Source: Brevinematales bacterium (GTDB lineage Bacteria; Spirochaetota; Brevinematia; Brevinematales; GWF1-51-8). From it: a stretch of 64,000 bases of DNA. The stretch lies in the NCBI GenBank assembly GCA_013177895.1, contig JABLXV010000018.1, positions 1 through 64,000 on the forward strand, written 5' to 3'. The notes under the pieces were generated by a model. It had not been told where the DNA came from. It ran no database searches and was given only the letters and a program-made list of their open reading frames with translations. The translations under genes and the position numbers were made by a program. Positions 4,417 to 39,959 of the stretch are shown here, piece after piece. Within the stretch, counting starts at the first letter, position 1. Each line of letters begins with the position of its first letter.

Positions 4417-4878
4417 TTAACCGGACGGAGGAAATAATACCGACAGGGTATGTTTCGATACCGGCAGTTCCGCGGTATTCCCCACATCCGTTTGTTCAAA
4501 GTACCACTGAGGAACCTGATAGAAATGCCCGTTTACCCTGAGATAAAAAAACTTTTTACTGCGGCCGGGCTTGATTTGTTTCGCGGAAATTACGCCCGAG
4601 ACCGTGAGCTTTAATTTATCGAGAAGGTCGAGCCGCAGGTTTTTTATCAGCCGGATGTAGTAGATAATGAGACAGGCGTACAAGACGAAAAAAACTCCAA
4701 AGCAGATTATAAGCGCGGGTATATCGGACAGGACGCCGAAGATGAGCATTACCGCCCATATCATCTGGAATACCATGAAAAATATCAGGAGACCCTTGCT
4801 TGTCTTATATTTTTTCTCAATAATGATTTGTTCTTCAGGAGACATCGGCTGAAGCGGAGATTGGTAGGAATCAATCAC
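4417..4878 (-). CDS. Two-helix membrane protein, paralogue 1 of 5
   Basis: I do not recognise the family. The protein has a short N-terminus ending in QPMSPEEQ, two adjacent hydrophobic segments (about residues 30-75), and a C-terminal domain of about 75 residues. I chose GTG at 4878: it overlaps the upstream stop by 8 bases, has CGGGG seven bases upstream, and gives exactly the N-terminal length of the four neighbouring paralogues. An upstream in-frame ATG at 4908 would put the start deep inside the preceding gene. The C-terminal FY..EQD..EIH pattern of the paralogues is worn here (GNTAELPVSKHTL). Length is 153 aa. Confidence 0.75.
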   Translation of the reverse strand: MIDSYQSPLQPMSPEEQIIIEKKYKTSKGLLIFFMVFQMIWAVMLIFGVLSDIPALIICFGVFFVLYACLIIYYIRLIKNLRLDLLDKLKLTVSGVISAKQIKPGRSKKFFYLRVNGHFYQVPQWYFEQTDVGNTAELPVSKHTLSVLFPPSG

Positions 4879-5392
4879 GGGCTTTCCCCGATATATCAAC
4901 GGTTTCATAGAATTTAAGTTCCTTCCGCTTGGAAAGGTCGTTGATGCCGAGCATGGTCCTCGATACGCGCGCGACATGAATCTCCATCATATCCCGTTCG
5001 GATACCGTTTCGTAAAACTCCTTCGGTATATAGTAATTCCTTTTATTGATGGTGACATAATGCGAGGCGACTCCCTTATTATAGACCACGTATGTCTTGT
5101 CCGCGCTGCCGTGGAGAACGGTTTTCACCTGTCCCGATAAGTCCCGCGTATATAAGGAGATGTTTACCGCGAAGACAAACGAGATAAGGAGCGAGAAGAA
5201 CAGGATGATACCCGTCCATACCCCGAGGTGGGGAACAGGGAAGAAAAATCCCGCCGTGAAAATCCCCGACAGGATGAGGGCAATCGGTAAGGAGACCCGC
5301 ACGACTTTTTTCGCATGCTGTAATTTCTTTTCGATAAATATCCTTTCCTCGGGAAGAAACGTCTGGTCGATTGATCCGTCGTCATAATACAT
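4871..5392 (-). CDS. Two-helix membrane protein, paralogue 2 of 5
   Basis: This 173-residue protein shares the layout of its neighbours: short N-terminus with TFLPEERIFIEKKL, two hydrophobic helices (about residues 30-75), then a soluble domain containing NYYIPKEFYETVSERD, MEIHVARVSRTML and INDLSKR. The consensus across the set is an aromatic-rich strand, FYD/E..xxEQD, a V/M-EIH strand, and a SK..L..I..LS tail. The function is unknown; the last domain could face the cytoplasm or periplasm. GAGGGT precedes the ATG. The gap to the next upstream paralogue is 9 bases, so they form one operon. Confidence 0.8.
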   Translation of the reverse strand: MYYDDGSIDQTFLPEERIFIEKKLQHAKKVVRVSLPIALILSGIFTAGFFFPVPHLGVWTGIILFFSLLISFVFAVNISLYTRDLSGQVKTVLHGSADKTYVVYNKGVASHYVTINKRNYYIPKEFYETVSERDMMEIHVARVSRTMLGINDLSKRKELKFYETVDISGKARD

Positions 5393-5401
5393 AGCTACCC
5401 T

Positions 5402-5902
5402 CTAAATAATTTTATCATACTGTGTCACAGTCATTTTCCGGGAAACATTCCTGATACTGAAAACCACCTTCGAATGACCGGCGAGATGGATTTCGACCAT
5501 GTCTTGTTCGGACGAGACATCGTAAAACTCCTGAGTCACGGAATAATTTTTTCGATGGACGTCGATAAAATAGCTTTGGATAGTGGAACGGGCGAACGTG
5601 TGCTTCTTCCCGATCATGCCGTGTATCACGGATTTCATGTTGGACGCGATATCCCCGCGATAATTGAGGATATTTACCGTCAGCGCGGCGGTCAGGAGCA
5701 GGAGGAAAAAGAGCGGGACTCCCGCTATCACGATCATGTGATACGAGGGGATGACGACCCCGGCGATTACGATTGCGGACAGCACGGCGGATATAATCGA
5801 TGTGATACGGATTGCCGAGCGGGACGTCCGGGAAAGTTTCTCAAGAAGCAGTAGTTCCTCCGGCATCATGGGCTGTACTGACGAACCGGTATTATCGTTC
5901 AT
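5402..5902 (-). CDS. Two-helix membrane protein, paralogue 3 of 5
   Basis: The 166-residue protein begins with a short polar segment ending in VQPMMPEELLLLEKL, followed by two hydrophobic helices and the shared C-terminal domain (NYSVTQEFYDVSSEQD, VEIHLAGHSKVVFSI, NVSRK). It is the clearest match to paralogues 2 and 4. GGAG lies seven bases upstream of the ATG. No catalytic residues stand out, and there is no signal peptide. I cannot assign a function. Confidence 0.8.
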   Translation of the reverse strand: MNDNTGSSVQPMMPEELLLLEKLSRTSRSAIRITSIISAVLSAIVIAGVVIPSYHMIVIAGVPLFFLLLLTAALTVNILNYRGDIASNMKSVIHGMIGKKHTFARSTIQSYFIDVHRKNYSVTQEFYDVSSEQDMVEIHLAGHSKVVFSIRNVSRKMTVTQYDKII

Positions 5903-5923
5903 TGCCGCTCCGTTTGTATTTAT

Positions 5924-6415
5924 TTAATGATAAAACTTCTGTACACAATTACGGGAAAGATCGTACAGGCTGAGAAGCGTTTTAGAACACCGCGCGAAAT
6001 GCACCTCCAGTAAATCCTGTTCCTCGATAGTATCATACAGCGCTTTCACTACTTCGAGCCGGTATCCCTTCATTTTTACATGAAAAGATATCGTCCCTTT
6101 CCGGTATTCCGTATATTTTTTATCGACGGGCCACTGGAAAACGATTTTCATTCCGTTTACTAAATCTATCCTGTATTTAATGGATTTGACGATCATCATT
6201 GCGATAAAAAGAAAGAGGAATCCCGCCGGGAAACCCGCCAATCCGGTGAGACGAAACTCCCGGATAAATATTCCGTATACCCCGAGCGCCGACAACGGTA
6301 GGACGATAGCAAGAGAAATAACGATTACCTGACGCGCGAGACGGACAAGATTCTTAATATGGGTTAACTCCTCGGGAAGCATCGGCTGGCTGTAATAGTC
6401 GTTGAATGCATTCAT
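5924..6415 (-). CDS. Two-helix membrane protein, paralogue 4 of 5
   Basis: The 163-residue protein has N-terminal YSQPMLPEELTHIKNL, two hydrophobic helices, and a C-terminal domain with GYRLEVVKALYDTIEEQD, LEVHFARCSKTLLSL and YDLSRN, matching paralogues 2 and 3 position by position. The spacing to paralogue 3 is 21 bases. Function is unknown. Conservation of an acidic EQD followed by an EVH/EIH strand in three of the five copies marks the most likely functional site. Confidence 0.8.
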   Translation of the reverse strand: MNAFNDYYSQPMLPEELTHIKNLVRLARQVIVISLAIVLPLSALGVYGIFIREFRLTGLAGFPAGFLFLFIAMMIVKSIKYRIDLVNGMKIVFQWPVDKKYTEYRKGTISFHVKMKGYRLEVVKALYDTIEEQDLLEVHFARCSKTLLSLYDLSRNCVQKFYH

Positions 6416-6502
6416 ACGTTATCCCGGATAGTTCTCTGCGAACGTAATATTTATTCTCATCATCCAGTGAAACCGTCATCACGCAAATCTGACGGGCGGG
6501 GG

Positions 6503-6964
6503 TCAGGGCAGTTTCTTAAACCCTACCGGGATAAGGGAATTGCATGCAAGGAAGAGGTCGATGCGGTCTCCCTTCTTCAGGGCGTCGGTCATTTCGCGGA
6601 AACCGAACCGCGTTTTCCCGTTCATGCGGAATACATACTTCGGACCTTTTCCATACGATACATAGATATCTTCCAGAACACCCGTCTCGGCTGCCATCAT
6701 TTTTTCATCAGCGTCTTTTTTCAGTTTCGAGTACTTGGAACTGAAGACAATGCCGACTATCAGGTAGGCGAGTATCGGAAGTCCGCCCATGAAGACCAGA
6801 ATAAAGTTCCGGGAGATCGCTCCGTATGCGATCATACCGCCGAAAAAGACGGTGAGAACCGCGTAGAGAATATACATGAGGCGGAGCTTTTTAATCTCCC
6901 TCTCAAGTTTCTCAACTTCATCTTCGGACATAGGAATTTTGTGATACATCGTATCGTCAGTCAT
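6503..6964 (-). CDS. Two-helix membrane protein, paralogue 5 of 5 (most divergent)
   Basis: This 153-residue protein is first in the operon. It keeps the N-terminal KIPMSEDEVEKLEREI, two hydrophobic helices and a soluble tail, but the tail (TRFGFREMTDALKKGD, RIDLFLACNSLIPVGF) is only distantly like the others. GGGGG lies five bases before the ATG. It probably represents the oldest duplicate or one under different selection. Function is unknown. Confidence 0.78.
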   Translation of the reverse strand: MTDDTMYHKIPMSEDEVEKLEREIKKLRLMYILYAVLTVFFGGMIAYGAISRNFILVFMGGLPILAYLIVGIVFSSKYSKLKKDADEKMMAAETGVLEDIYVSYGKGPKYVFRMNGKTRFGFREMTDALKKGDRIDLFLACNSLIPVGFKKLP

Positions 6965-29047: not shown

Positions 29048-30211
29048 CTACTTTCCTGTCAGCGGGTTATAGTAATCGAAGAAAGCGGGATATATCGCAG
29101 ACATTTCCTTCTTTATTTTATCAAATTTTTTCTTCAGGTAAGGATCGTTCTCAATCCATTTTATCGCATCGGAGTATTCGGCGGGAGTCATCATAGCCGC
29201 GAAAATCTCCGCGCGATCCTGATATATATCGTTCATACTATACCCGTTAAGAAAACCCTCTTGGGGATGTTCCTTAAATGTGTTGATATCCGTCAGATTA
29301 TAAGGCGATTTATCGGAATATTTCGTGCCCGGCGCGTTCAGGGCTTTCCACTCCTGTAGAAGATTGGGATTGTATTTCCAGTTATCGATATAGTGCATGA
29401 ATTCATGCGCGAACACATGCGACACCCAACTTTCGGAAAGGTTGACTGTGATAAATATCAATTTCTCGCTGAAGTCAAAATGTCCCCCGACGGGCTGGTC
29501 GAGAAAAATGATTTCCTTTACAAACACGACGCCTTTCAACCCGGTTTTTTTAATAAACTCCGGGGGATAGCGTTTGAGGGCAAGAATCAACGCCGGGAAA
29601 TATTTTTCGGTAAGTTTTTCCTTATCCGCATCGGCCAGATTTTTATAAGAACCGGTTTCTTTTACTTTATATCCCGCGTTAAAATCTCCATACAGTATAT
29701 CTAACCCATATAACGATTCGATTTCTTTAATCCCGCCGGTATGCCATTTCTTCAGGTTTTCCTTCGACTCACCGCCAGGATTCTTTGATTTCAGGTTGAG
29801 CGTGATTTCTTTTACCTTTCGGATAGACATGAACTGCTCCATAGTGTCCATCCGCAATACCTGAAAGATAGCATATACCGGAAAATTTCCTTCCCCGAAT
29901 ACCGCGAGCATCTCAGCCTCGGAAATTTCCAGTTCGAGTATATCGCGGGAATAAGAATTGTCCTTCATCACGATGTATTCCAGAGAATACACGGTAAGTT
30001 TGCGCTGATCGTCGTGGAGAACAAACTGCGCCATGACGGTTTTTCCTTTAAGTCCCGTTAGTTTCAGGTTTTTCACTATAACCTGATACCCATAGCCGTC
30101 TTTCTTCGTCAGTTTTACATTTTCAAGTATCTGCACATCGCCTACCGTGGCTTCGGAATACCCCGATGTCAGTGTAGTCAGAAGAATATAACATATGAGT
30201 ATATATTTCAT
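29048..30211 (-). CDS. Secreted HExxH zinc metalloprotease-like protein
   Basis: A signal peptide (residues 1-19) and an N-terminal beta-rich region (to about 150) precede a catalytic domain. The zinc motif VFAHEFMHYIDN lies near residue 270, and DRAEIFAAMM near residue 337 supplies the likely third zinc ligand Glu, as in gluzincins of the lethal-factor type. Length is 387 aa. A good promoter lies upstream, and GGGGAGG precedes the ATG. It is divergent from the sensor/serpin/caspase cluster, so it could add to an extracytoplasmic proteolysis neighbourhood, though no direct link is visible. Confidence 0.72.
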   Translation of the reverse strand: MKYILICYILLTTLTSGYSEATVGDVQILENVKLTKKDGYGYQVIVKNLKLTGLKGKTVMAQFVLHDDQRKLTVYSLEYIVMKDNSYSRDILELEISEAEMLAVFGEGNFPVYAIFQVLRMDTMEQFMSIRKVKEITLNLKSKNPGGESKENLKKWHTGGIKEIESLYGLDILYGDFNAGYKVKETGSYKNLADADKEKLTEKYFPALILALKRYPPEFIKKTGLKGVVFVKEIIFLDQPVGGHFDFSEKLIFITVNLSESWVSHVFAHEFMHYIDNWKYNPNLLQEWKALNAPGTKYSDKSPYNLTDINTFKEHPQEGFLNGYSMNDIYQDRAEIFAAMMTPAEYSDAIKWIENDPYLKKKFDKIKKEMSAIYPAFFDYYNPLTGK

Positions 30212-30265: not shown

Positions 30266-30374
30266 ATAATGGAATCATTCACGGTTAAACATTAAAAAAA
30301 ATATTGACATTCAACTCCTTTTGGGTTAAAGTATGTAGAAAGGGATGAGCAGGGAAAATTTATCTGGGGGCCGC

Positions 30375-32366
30375 ATGAGACAGTTATTCTCTCGTATCGT
30401 AACCGGATGGTTTCTTCTATTGTTGCCTTTCGCATCTATTACCGCCGCCGATGGGCATAAAGAAATCCTGATCGTCCATTCCTATAGCCAGGGGCTTGAG
30501 TGGACGGACAATATCACGATGGGTATTCTATCCACCCTTGCGAACTCCGAGTACTCCGGCATCATGTTCCATATCGAATATCTCGATACTAAAAGCTATT
30601 TTTCCCCCGGATACATCAACCAGCTTTTCGATATATTTCAGAAGAAATTCAAAGATAAGCATTTCGACGTGATTATCTCTTCCGATGACGATGCGTTTAA
30701 CTTCCTGTTAGACCACCAATCCTTATTATTCCCGAATACCCCGGTCGTTTTCTGCGGCGTGAATTATCTCGATCCCGCGAAACTGCGGAATAAACCGTTA
30801 TTCACCGGTATCGAGGAAAAGTACGACCTTGAGGGAACTATCAGCCTGATGCTCAAACTGCATCCGCTCGCGAAAGAGATATTTGTCGTAAACGATAAAA
30901 CCACCACAGGGGTGGGCAACCTCAAACGTCTGGAGGAGGTAATGCCGTTATTTACGGCGCAGGTTGAATTTGTGTTTTCGGATGATATGGTAATGAAAGA
31001 CCTGCTGAAAAAGCTCAGCGAGCTGACGCCGGATACGCTTGTTCTTCTGCTTACCTATAACCGCGATAAAGCCGGGGTGAATTATAGTTATACCGAGGGC
31101 GGCGAAATAATATCCAAGGCCAGCCCCGTCCCGGTATATGTGGTATGGGATTTTTATCTCGGTAAGGGCGTCGTGGGCGGACTGGTGACCAGCGGATTCC
31201 TACAGGGGAAAATGGCCGCGCAGATGGCGATTAAAATTTTAAACGGCGAAAGCGTGACCAATATTCCCGTGGTACAGGAAGACGTCAACCAGTATATGTT
31301 CGATTACGAGCAGTTGATGAAATTTTTTATCCCTCTATCCGAAATACCCGGACAGAGCGTGATTATCAATCGGCCGCTTTCGTTCTATGAGCAGAATAAA
31401 GTTCTGGTCTGGGTGATCGGCGCTGGGATATTCGGGCTCCTTGCCGCGCTCGGGATACTCTATATCGTCCAGCTGCGGACGCGCAAGGCCTATCTTCATA
31501 GCCAAGACCGTTATCAAAAGCTTGCGCAGGCCTCCCATGAGGGGATAGTCCTGCATATGGATCAGAAGATTATCGACGTGAACGACAGTTACGCCAGAAT
31601 GACCGGCTATAAAGTGCAGGAAATGATGGGGATGAATATTTATAAGATTATCGCCGCCGACGACCGGGAACGGGTATCGAAACTGATCGAGGGGGGCTTC
31701 GATGAACCCTTCGAACTGAAACTGCTCCGTAAGGACGGTTCCATATTCTGGGCCGAGGCGAACGGACGGAATATGAAGTACAAGGGCGGGGTTCTCCGGG
31801 TCGCCGCCGTAAGGGATATTACCGACGAGAAAAAGTCGAAGGAGGCGATGAAGCGCTGGTTCGATTTCGAACGGACGGTTTCCTCGGTTCTTTCGCATTA
31901 TATAGGGATTACGGATATCGACGCGGCGATTAACGCGTCTCTGGCGGAGCTCGGGCTTTTTATCAAGGCCGACCGCGTCTATGTATTCATGATTAATACC
32001 GACGGGAGCACGATGGATAATACGCATGAATGGTGCGCCGCCGGGGTGGATAAACAGATCGATAATCTGAAGAATATGAGCGTGGAATCTTTCCCGTGGT
32101 GGGACGACCGCATCAAGCACGGTGAAAGTATACTGATCGAGGATGTTTCTCTTCTTCCCGCGGAGGCTGTCGCCGAAAAAGAGATACTGGAGGCGCAGGG
32201 TATCCTTGCATTGGTTGTGGTTCCCATACGTCGCGGTAAAAATGTCGTCGGTTTCGTCGGGGTCGATAATACCAAAACGACGGGGACATGGAGCGACGAT
32301 TATATCGCGATACTCCGGCTTTTCGCCGAAGTATTGGGAAAAGTGTTGTCGACTACCGGGAAGTGA
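30375..32366 (+). CDS. Membrane sensor: periplasmic-binding domain, PAS and GAF, no output domain
   Basis: A signal peptide (MRQLFSRIVTGWFLLLLPFAS) leads to an ABC-substrate-binding-like extracytoplasmic domain (about 30-325; EILIVHSYSQGLEWTDN, VIISSDDDAF, PVVFCGVNY), a membrane helix (about 341-367), a PAS domain (about 378-480) and a GAF domain (about 499-660). The protein stops right after the GAF, with no kinase, GGDEF or MCP domain. Length is 663 aa. ATG 30375 has GGGGG four bases upstream; ATG 30345 lies against the purine run and near the promoter. The next gene, a serpin, starts 20 bases later. Confidence 0.82.
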   Translation: MRQLFSRIVTGWFLLLLPFASITAADGHKEILIVHSYSQGLEWTDNITMGILSTLANSEYSGIMFHIEYLDTKSYFSPGYINQLFDIFQKKFKDKHFDVIISSDDDAFNFLLDHQSLLFPNTPVVFCGVNYLDPAKLRNKPLFTGIEEKYDLEGTISLMLKLHPLAKEIFVVNDKTTTGVGNLKRLEEVMPLFTAQVEFVFSDDMVMKDLLKKLSELTPDTLVLLLTYNRDKAGVNYSYTEGGEIISKASPVPVYVVWDFYLGKGVVGGLVTSGFLQGKMAAQMAIKILNGESVTNIPVVQEDVNQYMFDYEQLMKFFIPLSEIPGQSVIINRPLSFYEQNKVLVWVIGAGIFGLLAALGILYIVQLRTRKAYLHSQDRYQKLAQASHEGIVLHMDQKIIDVNDSYARMTGYKVQEMMGMNIYKIIAADDRERVSKLIEGGFDEPFELKLLRKDGSIFWAEANGRNMKYKGGVLRVAAVRDITDEKKSKEAMKRWFDFERTVSSVLSHYIGITDIDAAINASLAELGLFIKADRVYVFMINTDGSTMDNTHEWCAAGVDKQIDNLKNMSVESFPWWDDRIKHGESILIEDVSLLPAEAVAEKEILEAQGILALVVVPIRRGKNVVGFVGVDNTKTTGTWSDDYIAILRLFAEVLGKVLSTTGK

Positions 32367-32385
32367 CCGGGGAGGTGCCGTTAAC

Positions 32386-33489
32386 GTGAATCAACCCGGG
32401 AGTTTCCAAAAGGTATCGTCCGTAGCATCCGTGTTATGGGATAACCTGCCGGAAAGTGGAAATAGCGGAAACATAGTCTTTTCCCCGTTCGGTATCTATC
32501 TTCTTCTCGCCGCCCTGAACGAGGGCGCGTCCGGAAAGACGGCGGAAATCCTGTCCGCGTTCCTCGGTATCGGTTCGCCCGAACCTGTCCGCGCGGAGGC
32601 CGTCCGCTTTTTTACGTTTCCATCGCGACGGACAAGCGAGTCCCTCCTCACTATTGCCAATCTGTTCCTGATAAAAAACACTTTTAACGTTTCCGAAAAT
32701 TTCCTCTTGACCATCCGGGAATATTACCGGTTTTATGCCGAACGTTCGGCGTTCGATAGCGCGGTATTAACGACGGTCAACAAATGGGCGTCCGAAAATA
32801 CGGGCGGCAGGATAAACGAGGTTCTGCGCGCGCTAACCCCGGACGAGGTGATGGTTCTGGTCAACTCGATCCTCTTCACCGGGCAGTGGGAGACCCCGTT
32901 TCAAAGCGGCGCGACCCGTCAGGGGAATTTTACCAATCTTGACGGGACTATCTCCGGGGCGAATATGATGTTCCTGCGCGACGAAATGGAGTATTATCAT
33001 TGCGCGGATTATTCCGCGGTCCGGCTGAAATATACGGGCGGGCGTTTCTCGATGATTTTTCTGCTCCCGGAGGCGGACGCATCCGGCGGCGGGATATTTT
33101 CAACCGTGCTAAGCGACGGTATCCCGTTCCCCAAGGGCGGGAGTTACGGCGAGCTCCGGGCTCCGCGTATCGGGCTATCGAACGAAATAAACGCGGATGA
33201 AATATTAAAAAAAGCCGGACTGGCGAATCTGTTCTCGCCGGACGCGAACCTGACCGGGATTAATCCCGACGGTATGCTGAACGCGAACCGGGTTATCCAG
33301 CGGAATAGCCTGTCTGTCGACGAAGCGGGCACTATCGCGGCTTCGGTTACCGCGGCGACAGTGGCGTTCCGGGGGATGAATCCCCGCAAGCCGGACTTCT
33401 CGATAACCTGCGACCGGACGTATTACCTGTTATTACGGGACGAAGTTTTCGGCGTTCCGCTGATCGCGGCGAGGGTCGCCGAAATGTAA
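32386..33489 (+). CDS. Serpin 1, no signal peptide, predicted P1 arginine
   Basis: Serpins are suicide inhibitors that trap proteases cleaving their reactive loop. This 367-residue protein has the fold markers (FSPFGIYLLLAALNEGASGKTAEIL near the N-terminus, VLVNSILFTGQWETPF, SMIFLLPEA) and an inhibitory hinge, DEAGTIAASVTAATVAF, with small residues. Counting from Gly315 (P15), P1 is Arg329 and P1' is Gly330, predicting a trypsin-like or Arg-specific target. GTG 32386 has GGAGG 10 bases upstream; no signal peptide can be found in frame, so it appears cytoplasmic. It is 20 bases from the sensor and 64 from serpin 2. Confidence 0.85.
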   Translation: MNQPGSFQKVSSVASVLWDNLPESGNSGNIVFSPFGIYLLLAALNEGASGKTAEILSAFLGIGSPEPVRAEAVRFFTFPSRRTSESLLTIANLFLIKNTFNVSENFLLTIREYYRFYAERSAFDSAVLTTVNKWASENTGGRINEVLRALTPDEVMVLVNSILFTGQWETPFQSGATRQGNFTNLDGTISGANMMFLRDEMEYYHCADYSAVRLKYTGGRFSMIFLLPEADASGGGIFSTVLSDGIPFPKGGSYGELRAPRIGLSNEINADEILKKAGLANLFSPDANLTGINPDGMLNANRVIQRNSLSVDEAGTIAASVTAATVAFRGMNPRKPDFSITCDRTYYLLLRDEVFGVPLIAARVAEM

Positions 33490-33552
33490 CACCGCTATGT
33501 TATCGGCGGCGGGAAAGTACGTATTATGATTAAGTACAATAATGGAGGAATT

Positions 33553-34770
33553 ATGAAAAAGATATTCGCGGGCGTATTCGCCGCCGTGATGGCGATGGGA
33601 TTGATGACGGGATGTCAGGATGGCGCTACTGTCTCACCCGAATGGAAGTCGGTTAAACTGGACGCGAAAGTCCTCAAGGGCCAGCAGGAATTCGGGTGGA
33701 ATCTCCTCAAGAAGCTGTATTCCGCGAAGCCGGACGGGAATATCATCCTTTCGCCGGTATCGGTATCGTTCGCGTTATCCTGCGCGCTCGACGGCGCGTC
33801 GGGGGAGACTCTCGCGCAGATGAAAGCCGTGATGGGGATGCAGGATGCTTCGGCGGCGGGTATCCATACCAATATCGGGTTCCTGATGTACAGCCTGCTG
33901 AACCGCGACCCGGAAGTCCTGTTATCGATCGCGAACTCCCTGTGGGTGATGAAGGGCGATTCGCTTATGGAGGACTACAGGAAATCGGTTAAAACTTTCT
34001 ACAACGCCGAGACGGCGGTGATCGATCCCAGCGACGCCGGAATGGTCGGGCGTATCAACGATTGGGTAAAGGGCGCGACGAAGGGAATGATCGATTCGAT
34101 CATCGGCCAGATACCCGACGGGTTGAGCGTGCTGATTCTCAACGCGGTCTATTTCAAGGGTGTGTGGGCTCAGCCGTTTCCCGTGGGGATGACCGCCGAT
34201 CTGCCGTTTACCTGCTTCGATAAGACGAAAAAAACGACGAAAATGATGTATATGCAGGCGAAACTCCCGTACTATGAGGAGAAGGGCTTCCAGTCGGTGT
34301 CGATGGACTACGGGAAGGGGAAATTCGCGATGGCGGTCGTGCTCCCCGCGCAGGGAACCGATATGGCCGCGTTTATCAACTCTTTCGGCGCGGATAAATG
34401 GAACACGGTTATCGCCGGGATGGGGATTGTTAAGGTCGAGATGGGGATGCACCGTTTTACCGCCGAATCCGACCTCGGACTGAACGATACCATGATGGCG
34501 CTCGGAATGCCCGCCGCATTCGGGGGAGGCTTCGATAAAATGGTCGCCGGGGAGAACCTCTTCATCTCAGTGATCAAGCAGAAAGCGAAGATCATAGTGA
34601 ACGAGCAGGGAAGCGAGGCGTCGGCGGTCACCGCGATACAGATTACGAAATCCTCAGTGGAGGCTCCCGAAAAGATGTACCGCATGATATGCGACCGCCC
34701 GTTCCTTTACGCGATCGTCGACCGTGAGACGGGTATCCCGCTGTTCATGGGAGTGATGGGCAATCCGTAA
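33553..34770 (+). CDS. Serpin 2, lipoprotein
   Basis: The 405-residue serpin has a lipoprotein signal ending in GLMTGC (Cys21), so it should be membrane-anchored in the envelope. Serpin markers include ILSPVSVSFALSCALDGASGETLAQM, VLILNAVYFKGVWAQPF and the C-terminal DRPFLYAIVDRETGIPLFMG. The reactive loop starts at Gly353 (P15) with SEASAVTAIQITKSS; aligned without gaps to serpin 1, P1 is Ser367 with Lys366 beside it, so the target residue is uncertain. GGAGG precedes ATG 33553. The duplicated serpins share an identical 53-residue distance from the hinge Gly to the C-terminus. Confidence 0.9.
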   Translation: MKKIFAGVFAAVMAMGLMTGCQDGATVSPEWKSVKLDAKVLKGQQEFGWNLLKKLYSAKPDGNIILSPVSVSFALSCALDGASGETLAQMKAVMGMQDASAAGIHTNIGFLMYSLLNRDPEVLLSIANSLWVMKGDSLMEDYRKSVKTFYNAETAVIDPSDAGMVGRINDWVKGATKGMIDSIIGQIPDGLSVLILNAVYFKGVWAQPFPVGMTADLPFTCFDKTKKTTKMMYMQAKLPYYEEKGFQSVSMDYGKGKFAMAVVLPAQGTDMAAFINSFGADKWNTVIAGMGIVKVEMGMHRFTAESDLGLNDTMMALGMPAAFGGGFDKMVAGENLFISVIKQKAKIIVNEQGSEASAVTAIQITKSSVEAPEKMYRMICDRPFLYAIVDRETGIPLFMGVMGNP

Positions 34771-34782
34771 TAATGAACGGAC

Positions 34783-34811
34783 TTGACAAAATAATCAATT
34801 AACGATATTAT
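34783..34811 (+). promoter_or_regulatory. Promoter for the caspase-like gene
   Basis: TTGACA (34783-34788) and TATTAT (34806-34811) are 17 bases apart, between serpin 2 and the peptidase, so the peptidase may also be transcribed separately from its predicted inhibitors. Confidence 0.7.
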
Positions 34812-34844
34812 CAAATCTGAGGTGTTTCCAACGGAGGAGCGGGT

Positions 34845-36242
34845 ATGCTGAGAAAAAGCGGAGGGATATTCTTATCAATAATACTGATCGGGCTATTATC
34901 GGGCTGTCCCGGGAAATCCTCCGTGCCCAAAGCGGGCGGGTCCGCTGTCCTGAAAGCGGTTCTGATTATGGAGGACGATTACGACGACCCGGGATTGAAC
35001 AATATCGCCGACAGCGTTCGCGCCGACTTCTCCTATATATCGAAACTGCTGGACGTGCTGGAAAAGTACGGGGTCATCAATGTCGATAAGATTGTTCTGC
35101 GCGGAGCCGACGCTACCAAGGACAATATCGTCAAGGTGCTGAAGAAGCTCAAGCTGAATAAAAACGACGTGCTGATGGTGTATTTTTCCGGGCACGGCGG
35201 GATGGAGAATGGACAGTTGTTCCTCGAAACCGCCGATATCGAGCAGCTTTACCGCGGCGAACTGGAGGAAATAGTCGAGGCGAAGGATGCCAAGCTCAAG
35301 CTCGTATTTACCGATGCGTGCAGCAGTTCCATCGACGGGTTGATCGCTGTCAAGACCCTCGGCGGGATCAACAAGGCGAACAAACAGCAGGCGCTCGTGG
35401 AAATCTATAAAAACCTGTTCCTGAACCATGAGGGGATGCTCTATATGACCGCCGCCTCCGAGGGCGAGTACGCATGGTCGGGCGACCGCGGCGGGGCGTT
35501 TACCGAATCCCTGATATACGAGACTCTCCTCCAGAACCCCAAACCGACATGGGAAGAAGTATGCAAGTCCGCGAAGAAAAAGACGCAGGATAAATTCCAG
35601 AAGATGGTCAGCATGGGGCTGATCGATTCCGCGACGTTGAAGGATATGAAAAATGACGGGATCAAGAACCAGACGCCGAAGGTTTATTCCATGCCCGTCC
35701 TCAAAAACGAAGTGACGGTTGACGAGGGGAAAATTGACGATTACCAGGATGTGGACAAAGAGGAAAAGTCGGATATAAAAATCAAGAATATCTCCGGTAA
35801 GGCGGTGACCTTCTATTTCGACAACAACACATCGGAGGATAATTGGGATTTCGGGAATACCGAGGAAATCAACCTTGCGTCCGGCAAGTCCACCGACTTA
35901 TACTCGGATAACGATAAAGCGGTGGTGTTCTTCATCATCGGCGAGGACGAGGGAAACTTCTTCGAGCTGAACTCCGGGAATTATCTCATCGACTATGCTA
36001 AAAAGGGCGAACTCGGGATATTCTACGACGAGGGAGAATCGGCCGATGACAATCAGGGCGGCGATAAGGACGACTTCTGGATATGGGATAGTGTCGATGA
36101 GGACGGCGATAATAGCGACGAGATCGATAATATCAAGAGCGAGGACGAGTGGGATTGGAGTACCGACGATTATAACGATAATTCCGGTGATAATAACGAT
36201 AGCGATGACGACGGCGGTACGGATCATTTCTTCGGGAAATAG
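34845..36242 (+). CDS. Caspase-fold (C14, orthocaspase-like) lipoprotein peptidase
   Basis: A lipoprotein signal ends in LLSGC (Cys21). The C14 domain (about 35-250) has the catalytic His117 in MVYFSGHGG and Cys159 in VFTDACSSS, both with normal surroundings. Asp157, two residues before the Cys, is the position that lines the S1 pocket of Arg/Lys-specific metacaspases. A second region (about 290-390) has beta-type strands, and the last 75 residues are very rich in Asp, Asn and Ser, possibly calcium binding. GGAGGAG precedes the ATG. It follows two serpins, one also a lipoprotein. Length is 465 aa. Confidence 0.88.
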   Translation: MLRKSGGIFLSIILIGLLSGCPGKSSVPKAGGSAVLKAVLIMEDDYDDPGLNNIADSVRADFSYISKLLDVLEKYGVINVDKIVLRGADATKDNIVKVLKKLKLNKNDVLMVYFSGHGGMENGQLFLETADIEQLYRGELEEIVEAKDAKLKLVFTDACSSSIDGLIAVKTLGGINKANKQQALVEIYKNLFLNHEGMLYMTAASEGEYAWSGDRGGAFTESLIYETLLQNPKPTWEEVCKSAKKKTQDKFQKMVSMGLIDSATLKDMKNDGIKNQTPKVYSMPVLKNEVTVDEGKIDDYQDVDKEEKSDIKIKNISGKAVTFYFDNNTSEDNWDFGNTEEINLASGKSTDLYSDNDKAVVFFIIGEDEGNFFELNSGNYLIDYAKKGELGIFYDEGESADDNQGGDKDDFWIWDSVDEDGDNSDEIDNIKSEDEWDWSTDDYNDNSGDNNDSDDDGGTDHFFGK

Positions 36243-36270
36243 CCGCTTGATGTAATAAAAGGGGGAAGGA

Positions 36271-36684
36271 ATGACTTTGTCGAGGCGGGGAGAATTGTTA
36301 TTACAGACTACTTTAAAATCCATTGAGGAAGAGTTGGAGAAATTCAGCCGGATACGGACTAAGGCGTACTATCCCGCTGCGGGGGAATCGGGGGTTCGGA
36401 CTATCGAATACCGGGATATTGTGGACAAGCTGGTCGTCAGTTTCGATTTAAAGGATCCCCACAGCGACCGCCGTAATGAGTACAGCACTTATATCTACGA
36501 CCTCGGGATGAAAATCCTTCACCTGAAAACCCAGATCGAATCTCCTTATACCTATATTATCGCGGAGCAGACGGGCGATAACGGGCTCCGGTTATTCGTC
36601 AACGATATGAACCTGAAAATTTCTATCGTGAAGAATTATGTTTACCGTGACAAAAAACTCGTATACATCAATGATGGTAATTAG
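36271..36684 (+). CDS. Unknown small protein downstream of the caspase-like gene
   Basis: The 137-residue protein is soluble and charged, with an N-terminal helix (LLLQTTLKSIEEELEKFSRI) and later beta-type segments (VDKLVVSFDLKD, YTYIIAEQT, LRLFVNDMNLKI). It has neither signal peptide nor membrane segment. GGGGGAAGGA precedes the ATG, and the gene is 28 bases after the peptidase, so it probably belongs to the same transcript. I recognise no family. Confidence 0.75.
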   Translation: MTLSRRGELLLQTTLKSIEEELEKFSRIRTKAYYPAAGESGVRTIEYRDIVDKLVVSFDLKDPHSDRRNEYSTYIYDLGMKILHLKTQIESPYTYIIAEQTGDNGLRLFVNDMNLKISIVKNYVYRDKKLVYINDGN

Positions 36685-38454: not shown

Positions 38455-39156
38455 CTAGTACGCGAAGATGATATTCATCAGAACGCCCGGGGACTTATTC
38501 GCCTCCCACGCCTTCATCAATGCCTCCGCGACCTGCGGGTCGTTCTGGAGTTTATAGATAACGGGAGGAACCTCGCCGTTCACCTCGATCGATTTCGAAA
38601 GCAGGGCGTCGGTCAGGTATTTCTTGGAATGCATCGCCGATTGCGGCGATACCGCGTTTATCTCTCCGTCGAGATACCCTTGCATAATGATTTCCGCGAC
38701 GTCCTTTTTATCGATATTAAACGCTTTGGATAGCACGTCGAGATTGTGCCCGTTGATACGCGCGGCTTCGTCTATCAGGAGGCTGATTTCCGCCTGCTGA
38801 TTCTGGGGCGGGGTGACATTCTTCACGGTGGTAATGATTCCGGTGACAATCAGGCTGACTCCCGCGATAATCAGGATGACCGCGAGCGTGGTGCTGAGGC
38901 TTCCCGACGTATCGGAGTAACGGGTGGTGGCGTCGCTGGACGCCTGGGTGGAGGACTGGCTGGCTTCCTCGCTCGACGCCCGGCACGAACCGTCGGTCGA
39001 CGACTCGGAGGAGGATTGCACCGAACTGTCGACGGAGGATTTCGACGACGCCTGCGCCGAAGAATCCTCTCCGATCAGCGCGTATAAATTCGTCCCACAG
39101 AGTACGAATGCGTTAAAAAACGCGAGAATTAACCCGATACATATTCCCTTTCTCAT
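38455..39156 (-). CDS. Exported Ser-rich protein with C-terminal domain shared by the neighbour
   Basis: The 233-residue protein has a signal sequence, a low-complexity Ser/Gln/Asp stretch (about 30-85), one membrane helix (LAVILIIAGVSLIVTGIITTV, about 90-110) and a C-terminal domain (about 120-233) with INGHNLDVLSKAFNIDK, AEIIMQGYLDGEINAVSPQS, LLSKSIEVNGE and a final MNIIFAY. That domain is repeated in the 39357 gene. I recognise no family. The Ser-rich part may be a wall or periplasm spacer. GGAGGG precedes the ATG. Confidence 0.75.
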   Translation of the reverse strand: MRKGICIGLILAFFNAFVLCGTNLYALIGEDSSAQASSKSSVDSSVQSSSESSTDGSCRASSEEASQSSTQASSDATTRYSDTSGSLSTTLAVILIIAGVSLIVTGIITTVKNVTPPQNQQAEISLLIDEAARINGHNLDVLSKAFNIDKKDVAEIIMQGYLDGEINAVSPQSAMHSKKYLTDALLSKSIEVNGEVPPVIYKLQNDPQVAEALMKAWEANKSPGVLMNIIFAY

Positions 39157-39356: not shown

Positions 39357-39959
39357 TCAGAACGCGAAAACCATACTCATAATTTCAGCGGGAGATTTGT
39401 GATTCTCCATCGCGGTCATAATCGCCTGGAGTTTCGCGGGATCGTCATGGAGTTTCTCGATAATCGTCGAATGAGCCCCGTTTATCTCGATCGATTTCGA
39501 GAGAAGGGTCTCCGAGAGATACGCCATCGATGCGTCGGCGGATTCGGGGGTCAGGGCGGAAACTTTCCGGTCGATATATCCCTGCATAATAATCTCCGCG
39601 ATTGTCGTCTTATCGAGAGCGTAAACTTTGGACAGCACGTCGAGATTATGGCCGTTCATACGCGCGGCTTCGTCGACCAGGATACTCACTTCCACCTGCG
39701 GGTTCGGCTTCTTTTCTCCGCCGGTTCCCGTGGTGGTACAAATACCCCACACGATCAGACCCGCCGCGCCTAAGACGACAAGGATAAGCAGGGTATAGGT
39801 CACGCTTACCGACGGTTCCGAGGCCTGGCCGGATGATTGCCCGGATGATTGTCCCGAAGATTGGGCGGAGGTATCCGCGAACGATGCGAACACCGGCACG
39901 ACCGACGCAGTATTGAGCATTCCCAGTATCAGCCCGAACGATATCCATTTCTTTATCAT
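39357..39959 (-). CDS. Exported protein paralogous to the 38455 gene
   Basis: The 200-residue protein has a signal peptide (to about residue 25), an SSGQSSGQSSGQ spacer, a membrane helix (YTLLILVVLGAAGLIVWGIC) and the same C-terminal domain as its neighbour: MNGHNLDVLSKVYALDKTTIAEIIMQGYID, LLSKSIEINGA and final MSMVFAF. The tetrad SGQS repeat is shorter than in the paralogue. GGAGG precedes the ATG. Function is unknown. Confidence 0.75.
   Translation of the reverse strand: MIKKWISFGLILGMLNTASVVPVFASFADTSAQSSGQSSGQSSGQASEPSVSVTYTLLILVVLGAAGLIVWGICTTTGTGGEKKPNPQVEVSILVDEAARMNGHNLDVLSKVYALDKTTIAEIIMQGYIDRKVSALTPESADASMAYLSETLLSKSIEINGAHSTIIEKLHDDPAKLQAIMTAMENHKSPAEIMSMVFAF

Follow-up and report, generated by a model that had tools for sequence, protein, structure and literature searches.

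The gene cluster analyzed here is most plausibly read as a broad-purpose pair of serpins lying beside an independently expressed caspase-fold (C14) peptidase, in a neighbourhood restricted to one genus and not as a one-enzyme/one-inhibitor system; we place the probability of this reading at roughly 0.57. The window (the whole stretch of 64,000 nucleotides analyzed) is part of the genome of an uncultured Brevinematales spirochaete (3.6 Mb in 112 contigs; G000), where this cluster is the sole place with serpins. The nearest named relatives by serpin genes are Brevinematales bacterium DeMMO6_14 (G001) and Spirochaetes bacterium GWF1_51_8 (G003). The comparison of the locus rests on these three genomes; in a fourth congener (G002) the contig stops within the sensor gene. 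The features under discussion are the following.

30304..30332, + strand: sigma-70-like promoter (TTGACA-17-TAAAGT) ahead of the sensor-serA-serB unit, aligned in four congeneric genomes
30375..32366, + strand: sensor, 663 aa; PF04392 (ABC_sub_bind) ligand-binding domain, transmembrane segment, PAS, GAF
32386..33489, + strand: serA, a 367-aa serpin with a GTG start and without a signal peptide
33526..34770, + strand: serB, lipoprotein serpin of 414 aa, lipobox LMTGC
34783..34811, + strand: sigma-70-like promoter (TTGACA-17-TATTAT) between serB and C14, belonging to the C14 gene
34845..36242, + strand: C14 peptidase, caspase-fold lipoprotein of 465 aa, PF00656 (E 1e-12), lipobox LLSGC
36271..36684, + strand: u137, protein of 137 aa
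Other contigs of G000 (C24, C25, C44, C56, C48, C35, C80; L063-L065, L217-L220): seven other C14 genes, mostly with signal peptides

An earlier note on this DNA had described five same-direction genes; all are present on the forward strand, and its gene assignments hold up against open reading frames and Pfam: the membrane ligand sensor through its PF04392-PAS-GAF architecture, the serpin and the lipoprotein serpin through their domain matches and the serB lipobox, and the lipoprotein C14 peptidase through PF00656, its lipobox and an intact dyad (His117, codon 35193-35195; Cys159, codon 35319-35321) that is invariant in 13 homologues. The 137-residue protein, which the note called unknown, has no family match in Pfam, NCBIfam or PADLOC. 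The interpretation built upon these genes survives in part: identities, lipoprotein signals and dyad stand, while the claim that they form a regulatory system is not supported.

Shared transcription of serpins and peptidase, which the idea of a single expression unit implies, is called into question by the conserved promoter-like site between serB and C14. This site matches 11 of 12 consensus positions with a 17-nt spacer and occupies the aligned position in G000, G001 and G003, while the spacer has diverged, as one would expect if the promoter is functional; when each gap was shuffled 5000 times, only 5-9 shuffles reached its promoter score. Given the conservation of this putative promoter, the cell can probably express the C14 gene without expressing the serpins. 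No terminator was found in the serB-C14 gap, and read-through from serB into C14 may occur.

Comparison with the congeners provides a further line of evidence. The order sensor-serA-serB-C14 recurs in G003, where identity to G000 is 65% for the sensor, 46% for serA, 48% for serB and 72% for C14. G001, on the other hand, shows sensor-serA-serB followed by a C14 remnant and u137; about 350 N-terminal codons of the peptidase gene have been deleted and the remaining tail is frameshifted, yet both serpins are intact despite the loss of the peptidase domain. Relaxed selection on the G001 serpins was not seen: Tajima tests gave no sign that they evolve faster than those of G000 (p 0.48 and 0.23), and G000-G001 dN/dS is about 0.09-0.16, a rough figure because synonymous sites are near saturation. 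The loss may have happened too recently for the serpins to have decayed, and the three C14 paralogues that G001 retains could be serpin targets, thereby preserving a link between the two families. Of the gene order whose conservation the earlier note had proposed to test, sensor, serA, serB and C14 are all kept in G003; the peptidase is lost in G001, and most neighbouring genes are collinear as well. Almost all genes of the window have an in-order counterpart in G001, and in G003 most are collinear over about 36 kb, from about 17.7 kb to about 56 kb of the window, where the G003 contig ends. Because collinearity reaches far past the cluster in both genomes, we rejected gene order as a sign of coupling; cluster synteny is background and says little on function. 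What does inform is that G001 lost C14 and retained the two serpins. Among the other genes of the window, four tandem small proteins (4417-6964, - strand; 153-186 aa), several with similar N-termini, evolve fast among congeners, and two paralogous small proteins (38455-39156 and 39357-39959, - strand) carry Ser/Gln-rich repeats after a signal peptide, with two copies in G000, two in G001 and three in G003.

Serpins were found in 33 and C14 genes in 174 of the 393 Spirochaetota genomes surveyed. Outside the genus we inspected the flanks of about 160 serpin loci, comprising 30 from Spirochaetota, 78 obtained by scanning 84,980 species with a serpin profile and 55 from the phylum of a cyanobacterial match (one locus counted twice), mostly over 9-10 kb on each side and over shorter distances near contig ends. 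The profile search detected no C14 gene in these flanks, and the first C14 profile recovered 13 of 13 control C14s, none of which had been used in building it. The search for C14 genes near serpins that the earlier note had called for thus failed to find the pairing outside the genus, and a recurrent inhibitor-peptidase association fails both there and in G001, where the serpins lack the peptidase. A random locus of G000 has a chance of 0.022 of lying within 5 kb of any of its eight C14 genes, and serpin-C14 proximity by itself is only mildly unusual; since chance adjacency amounts to only about 0.02, some functional reason is nonetheless plausible.

Both serpins have complete domains. serA (Pfam Serpin, PF00079, E 6e-64, profile positions 4-368 of 370) was listed as a reading frame of 32143-33489 overlapping the sensor gene; its start is most probably the GTG at 32386, behind the Shine-Dalgarno sequence GGAGGTG, and from this likely start it has no signal peptide. 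The signal peptide is missing in all three genomes, and serA is predicted to be cytosolic. The gene begins 19 bp after the sensor gene in G000 and within about 20 bp of it in G001 and G003. Its reactive centre (FR/G) has Arg329 at P1 (codon 33370-33372) and Gly at P1', a bond conserved in 3/3 orthologues, including that of G001. P1 Arg occurs in only 6/167 other bacterial serpins (2 of 113 parsed loops plus 4 of 54 in a second phylum sample). That this residue is kept in G001, which lacks the cluster C14 but has the other three, points to C14s as a group or to Arg-specific enzymes of another kind more than to the cluster C14. The inhibitory hinge consensus is ExGTEAAAA (PMC8233489); the serA hinge, EAGTIAASV, has Ile/Met in place of Glu at P13 and is otherwise permissive. 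serA forms a deep, long branch in the tree (1.41 changes per column), and its orthologues are only 44-46% identical, yet they conserve the P1-P1' bond and the small hinge residues.

In serB (Serpin, E 6e-88), the hinge EQGSEASAV agrees with the consensus, and the reactive-centre loop (ITK/SS) places Lys375 (34648-34650) at nominal P2, within a Thr-Lys followed by Ser/Thr/Gly. Judging from these loops, serA and serB look fitted to Arg/Lys-type proteases. A recent tandem duplication giving rise to the pair has no support, the two falling in separate clades of the tree. Tandem serpins are common elsewhere (about a dozen loci in the 78-locus sample), and hence the pair requires no special explanation.

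The cluster peptidase continues beyond its catalytic part into a beta-rich domain and an Asp-rich tail and, like serB, has a lipobox in every genome where the gene is intact. Two acidic residues, D157 (two residues ahead of Cys159) and E208, are invariant in homologues and might hint at Arg/Lys cleavage specificity. Foldseek matched a model of the protein best to MALT1 (E 7e-8), caspases, AtMC9 and legumain; with a pLDDT of 64 and loose superpositions, the fold is assigned with moderate confidence as nearest to paracaspases, caspases and metacaspases. Several of these MALT1, caspase and metacaspase matches cleave after Arg. Fold and Arg-cutting relatives thus make the C14s chemically plausible serpin targets, and a P1-Arg serpin next to an enzyme of this type of fold is chemically sensible. 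The C14 load of G000 is high, for most C14-bearing Spirochaetota genomes in the survey show a single gene. Export signals are apparent by eye in 7/8 of its C14s, the eighth beginning at a contig edge with its N-terminus out of view; one is fused to a BamB-like beta-propeller (L217:2959-4854). The cluster C14 belongs to a genus-specific subfamily of four, the other three members being present in each well-assembled congener with intact dyads and with no serpin found nearby. The earlier note had regarded homologous peptidases without associated serpins as evidence against its proposal, and three such paralogues occur per genome. A role in defence was rejected, PADLOC returning just one weak, generic caspase model.

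Upstream, the sensor (orthologues 80% identical in G001, 65% in G003) ends directly after its GAF domain, and the domain search found PF04392, PAS and GAF only, with no kinase, cyclase or DNA-binding output domain. Its full-length paralogue (G000:C62) is a hybrid histidine kinase, with HisKA, HATPase and receiver domains beyond the GAF. The suggestion that the sensor gates expression or activity of the cluster is not sustained by a protein lacking an output domain. The spacer of its promoter-like site is partly conserved in four genomes (TTCAA..CTTT..GTTAAAGT), and the conserved piece is possibly an operator. Divergent from the sensor lies a gene for a secreted zinc metallopeptidase (29048-30211, - strand; HEFMH, PF15890 below cut-off), which is present in G003 and absent from G001 and G002; G001 is thus without both peptidases that flank the sensor-serpin unit. 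At the other end, u137 is one of a small group of uncharacterised proteins of about 137-190 aa, with members in several genera of the order (25-31% identity). A role as inhibitor or cofactor of C14 was rejected: u137 is absent next to C14 in G003, a relative in G007 is not near a C14, and the poor model of u137 gave no fold match.

We know of almost no natural serpin targets in free-living bacteria and of no established inhibitor of bacterial caspase homologues. In the Bfp-Bfi, SpeB-Spi and staphopain-staphostatin systems, as in the cluster, a cysteine peptidase gene adjoins inhibitor genes. Their inhibitors are dedicated and co-transcribed, however, whereas the cluster has a promoter-like site in between, serpins that persist without the peptidase, and a serpin and a C14 as inhibitor and enzyme. 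The Spi/staphostatin class has been proposed to act on protease folded before export. The Bfp C10 proteases of Bacteroides fragilis and some of the Bfi inhibitors are predicted lipoproteins, and one Bfi is predicted to be periplasmic (PMC2873492). AtSerpin1 and plant metacaspases likewise combine a serpin with a caspase-fold peptidase, but they are not gene neighbours and the inhibition is established by experiment, while that in the cluster is putative. AtSerpin1 carries Arg at P1. Its inhibition of AtMC9 and AtMC1 has been reported (PMC10609998). Among miropin and the Group T bacterial serpins, miropin (5ncs) is the best solved match of the serpin profile and serB shares the Lys-containing loop; serA differs in having Arg at P1 and no signal peptide. 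To our knowledge, no C14 neighbour has been described for miropin. A metacaspase operon with protease and protease-inhibition functions, thus resembling the cluster, has been reported in four Rhizobium strains, serpins being unmentioned (PMC3501461). Our literature search, largely confined to papers available without subscription, found none on bacterial serpin-metacaspase gene clusters.

In the reading that we favour, the cluster would comprise two head-to-tail transcription units, sensor-serA-serB with its own promoter and C14(-u137) with another. Both serpins probably inhibit proteases as suicide substrates, and serA (P1 Arg, cytosol) and serB (Lys at P2, envelope) would, from their predicted locations, quench Arg/Lys-directed proteolysis in two compartments. 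They probably have several targets, which might include prematurely folded or stray C14s of the cell itself, foreign trypsin-like enzymes or both; the cluster C14 would be an exported caspase-fold peptidase working independently of them. Most likely, then, the serpins protect cytosol and envelope from Arg/Lys-specific proteolysis in general. This overlaps with a purely outward defence, in which miropin-like serpins act on foreign serine or cysteine proteases of competitors or predators, with no part played by any C14. Most bacterial serpins occur alone or in tandem with no peptidase neighbour, and miropin, the closest solved structure, inhibits host and microbial proteases through several loop bonds (PMC8201313); serA, without a signal peptide in 3/3 genomes, would nevertheless meet such enzymes only upon lysis or through an unrecognised exit route, and we consider this alternative a genuine contender with the odds against it.

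A cis-encoded module of the kind proposed in the earlier note, modelled on staphostatin, Spi and Bfi acting on papain-like proteases, would have serB hold the mature peptidase in the envelope and serA guard the cytosol from peptidase folded before export. serB could indeed meet C14 in the envelope, both being predicted lipoproteins, and the adjacency kept in G000 and G003, the match of serA P1 Arg and serB Lys to an Arg/Lys peptidase, the paracaspase (MALT1) and plant metacaspase fold matches and the precedents of AtSerpin1 (PMC10609998) and of the co-transcribed, partly lipoprotein or periplasmic B. fragilis inhibitors (PMC2873492) all speak for it. An envelope orthocaspase under cis-encoded inhibitors is unlikely, however, when G001 retains the serpins without C14, the peptidase has its own conserved promoter-like site, the pairing is absent outside the genus, three paralogues lack serpins and serA is predicted in a different compartment from an enzyme whose specificity is putative. 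The least probable alternative, and a distinctly improbable one, makes serA a non-inhibitory, regulatory partner of the output-less sensor, leaving serB as the only inhibitor. The long branch, the missing P13 Glu, the predicted cytosolic location and the 19-bp gap would suit it; the P1 Arg-P1' Gly bond and small hinge residues, conserved at 44-46% identity, would be needless in a non-inhibitor.

If the serpins do not act on C14s, the locus is an ordinary one. With most C14s bearing export signals and serA predicted to be cytosolic, serA could reach only a C14 folded before export, or some other target. It is a tentative and somewhat doubtful possibility that the cytosolic P1-Arg serpin and its envelope companion together control the enlarged set of exported C14s of this genus; if true, this would be the first case of serpin-orthocaspase regulation in prokaryotes, parallel to what AtSerpin1 and metacaspases do in plants. 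Having a P1-Arg serpin, a lipoprotein serpin and eight C14s in a single genome, this spirochaete offers a compact test case for the action of serpins on bacterial caspase-fold enzymes.
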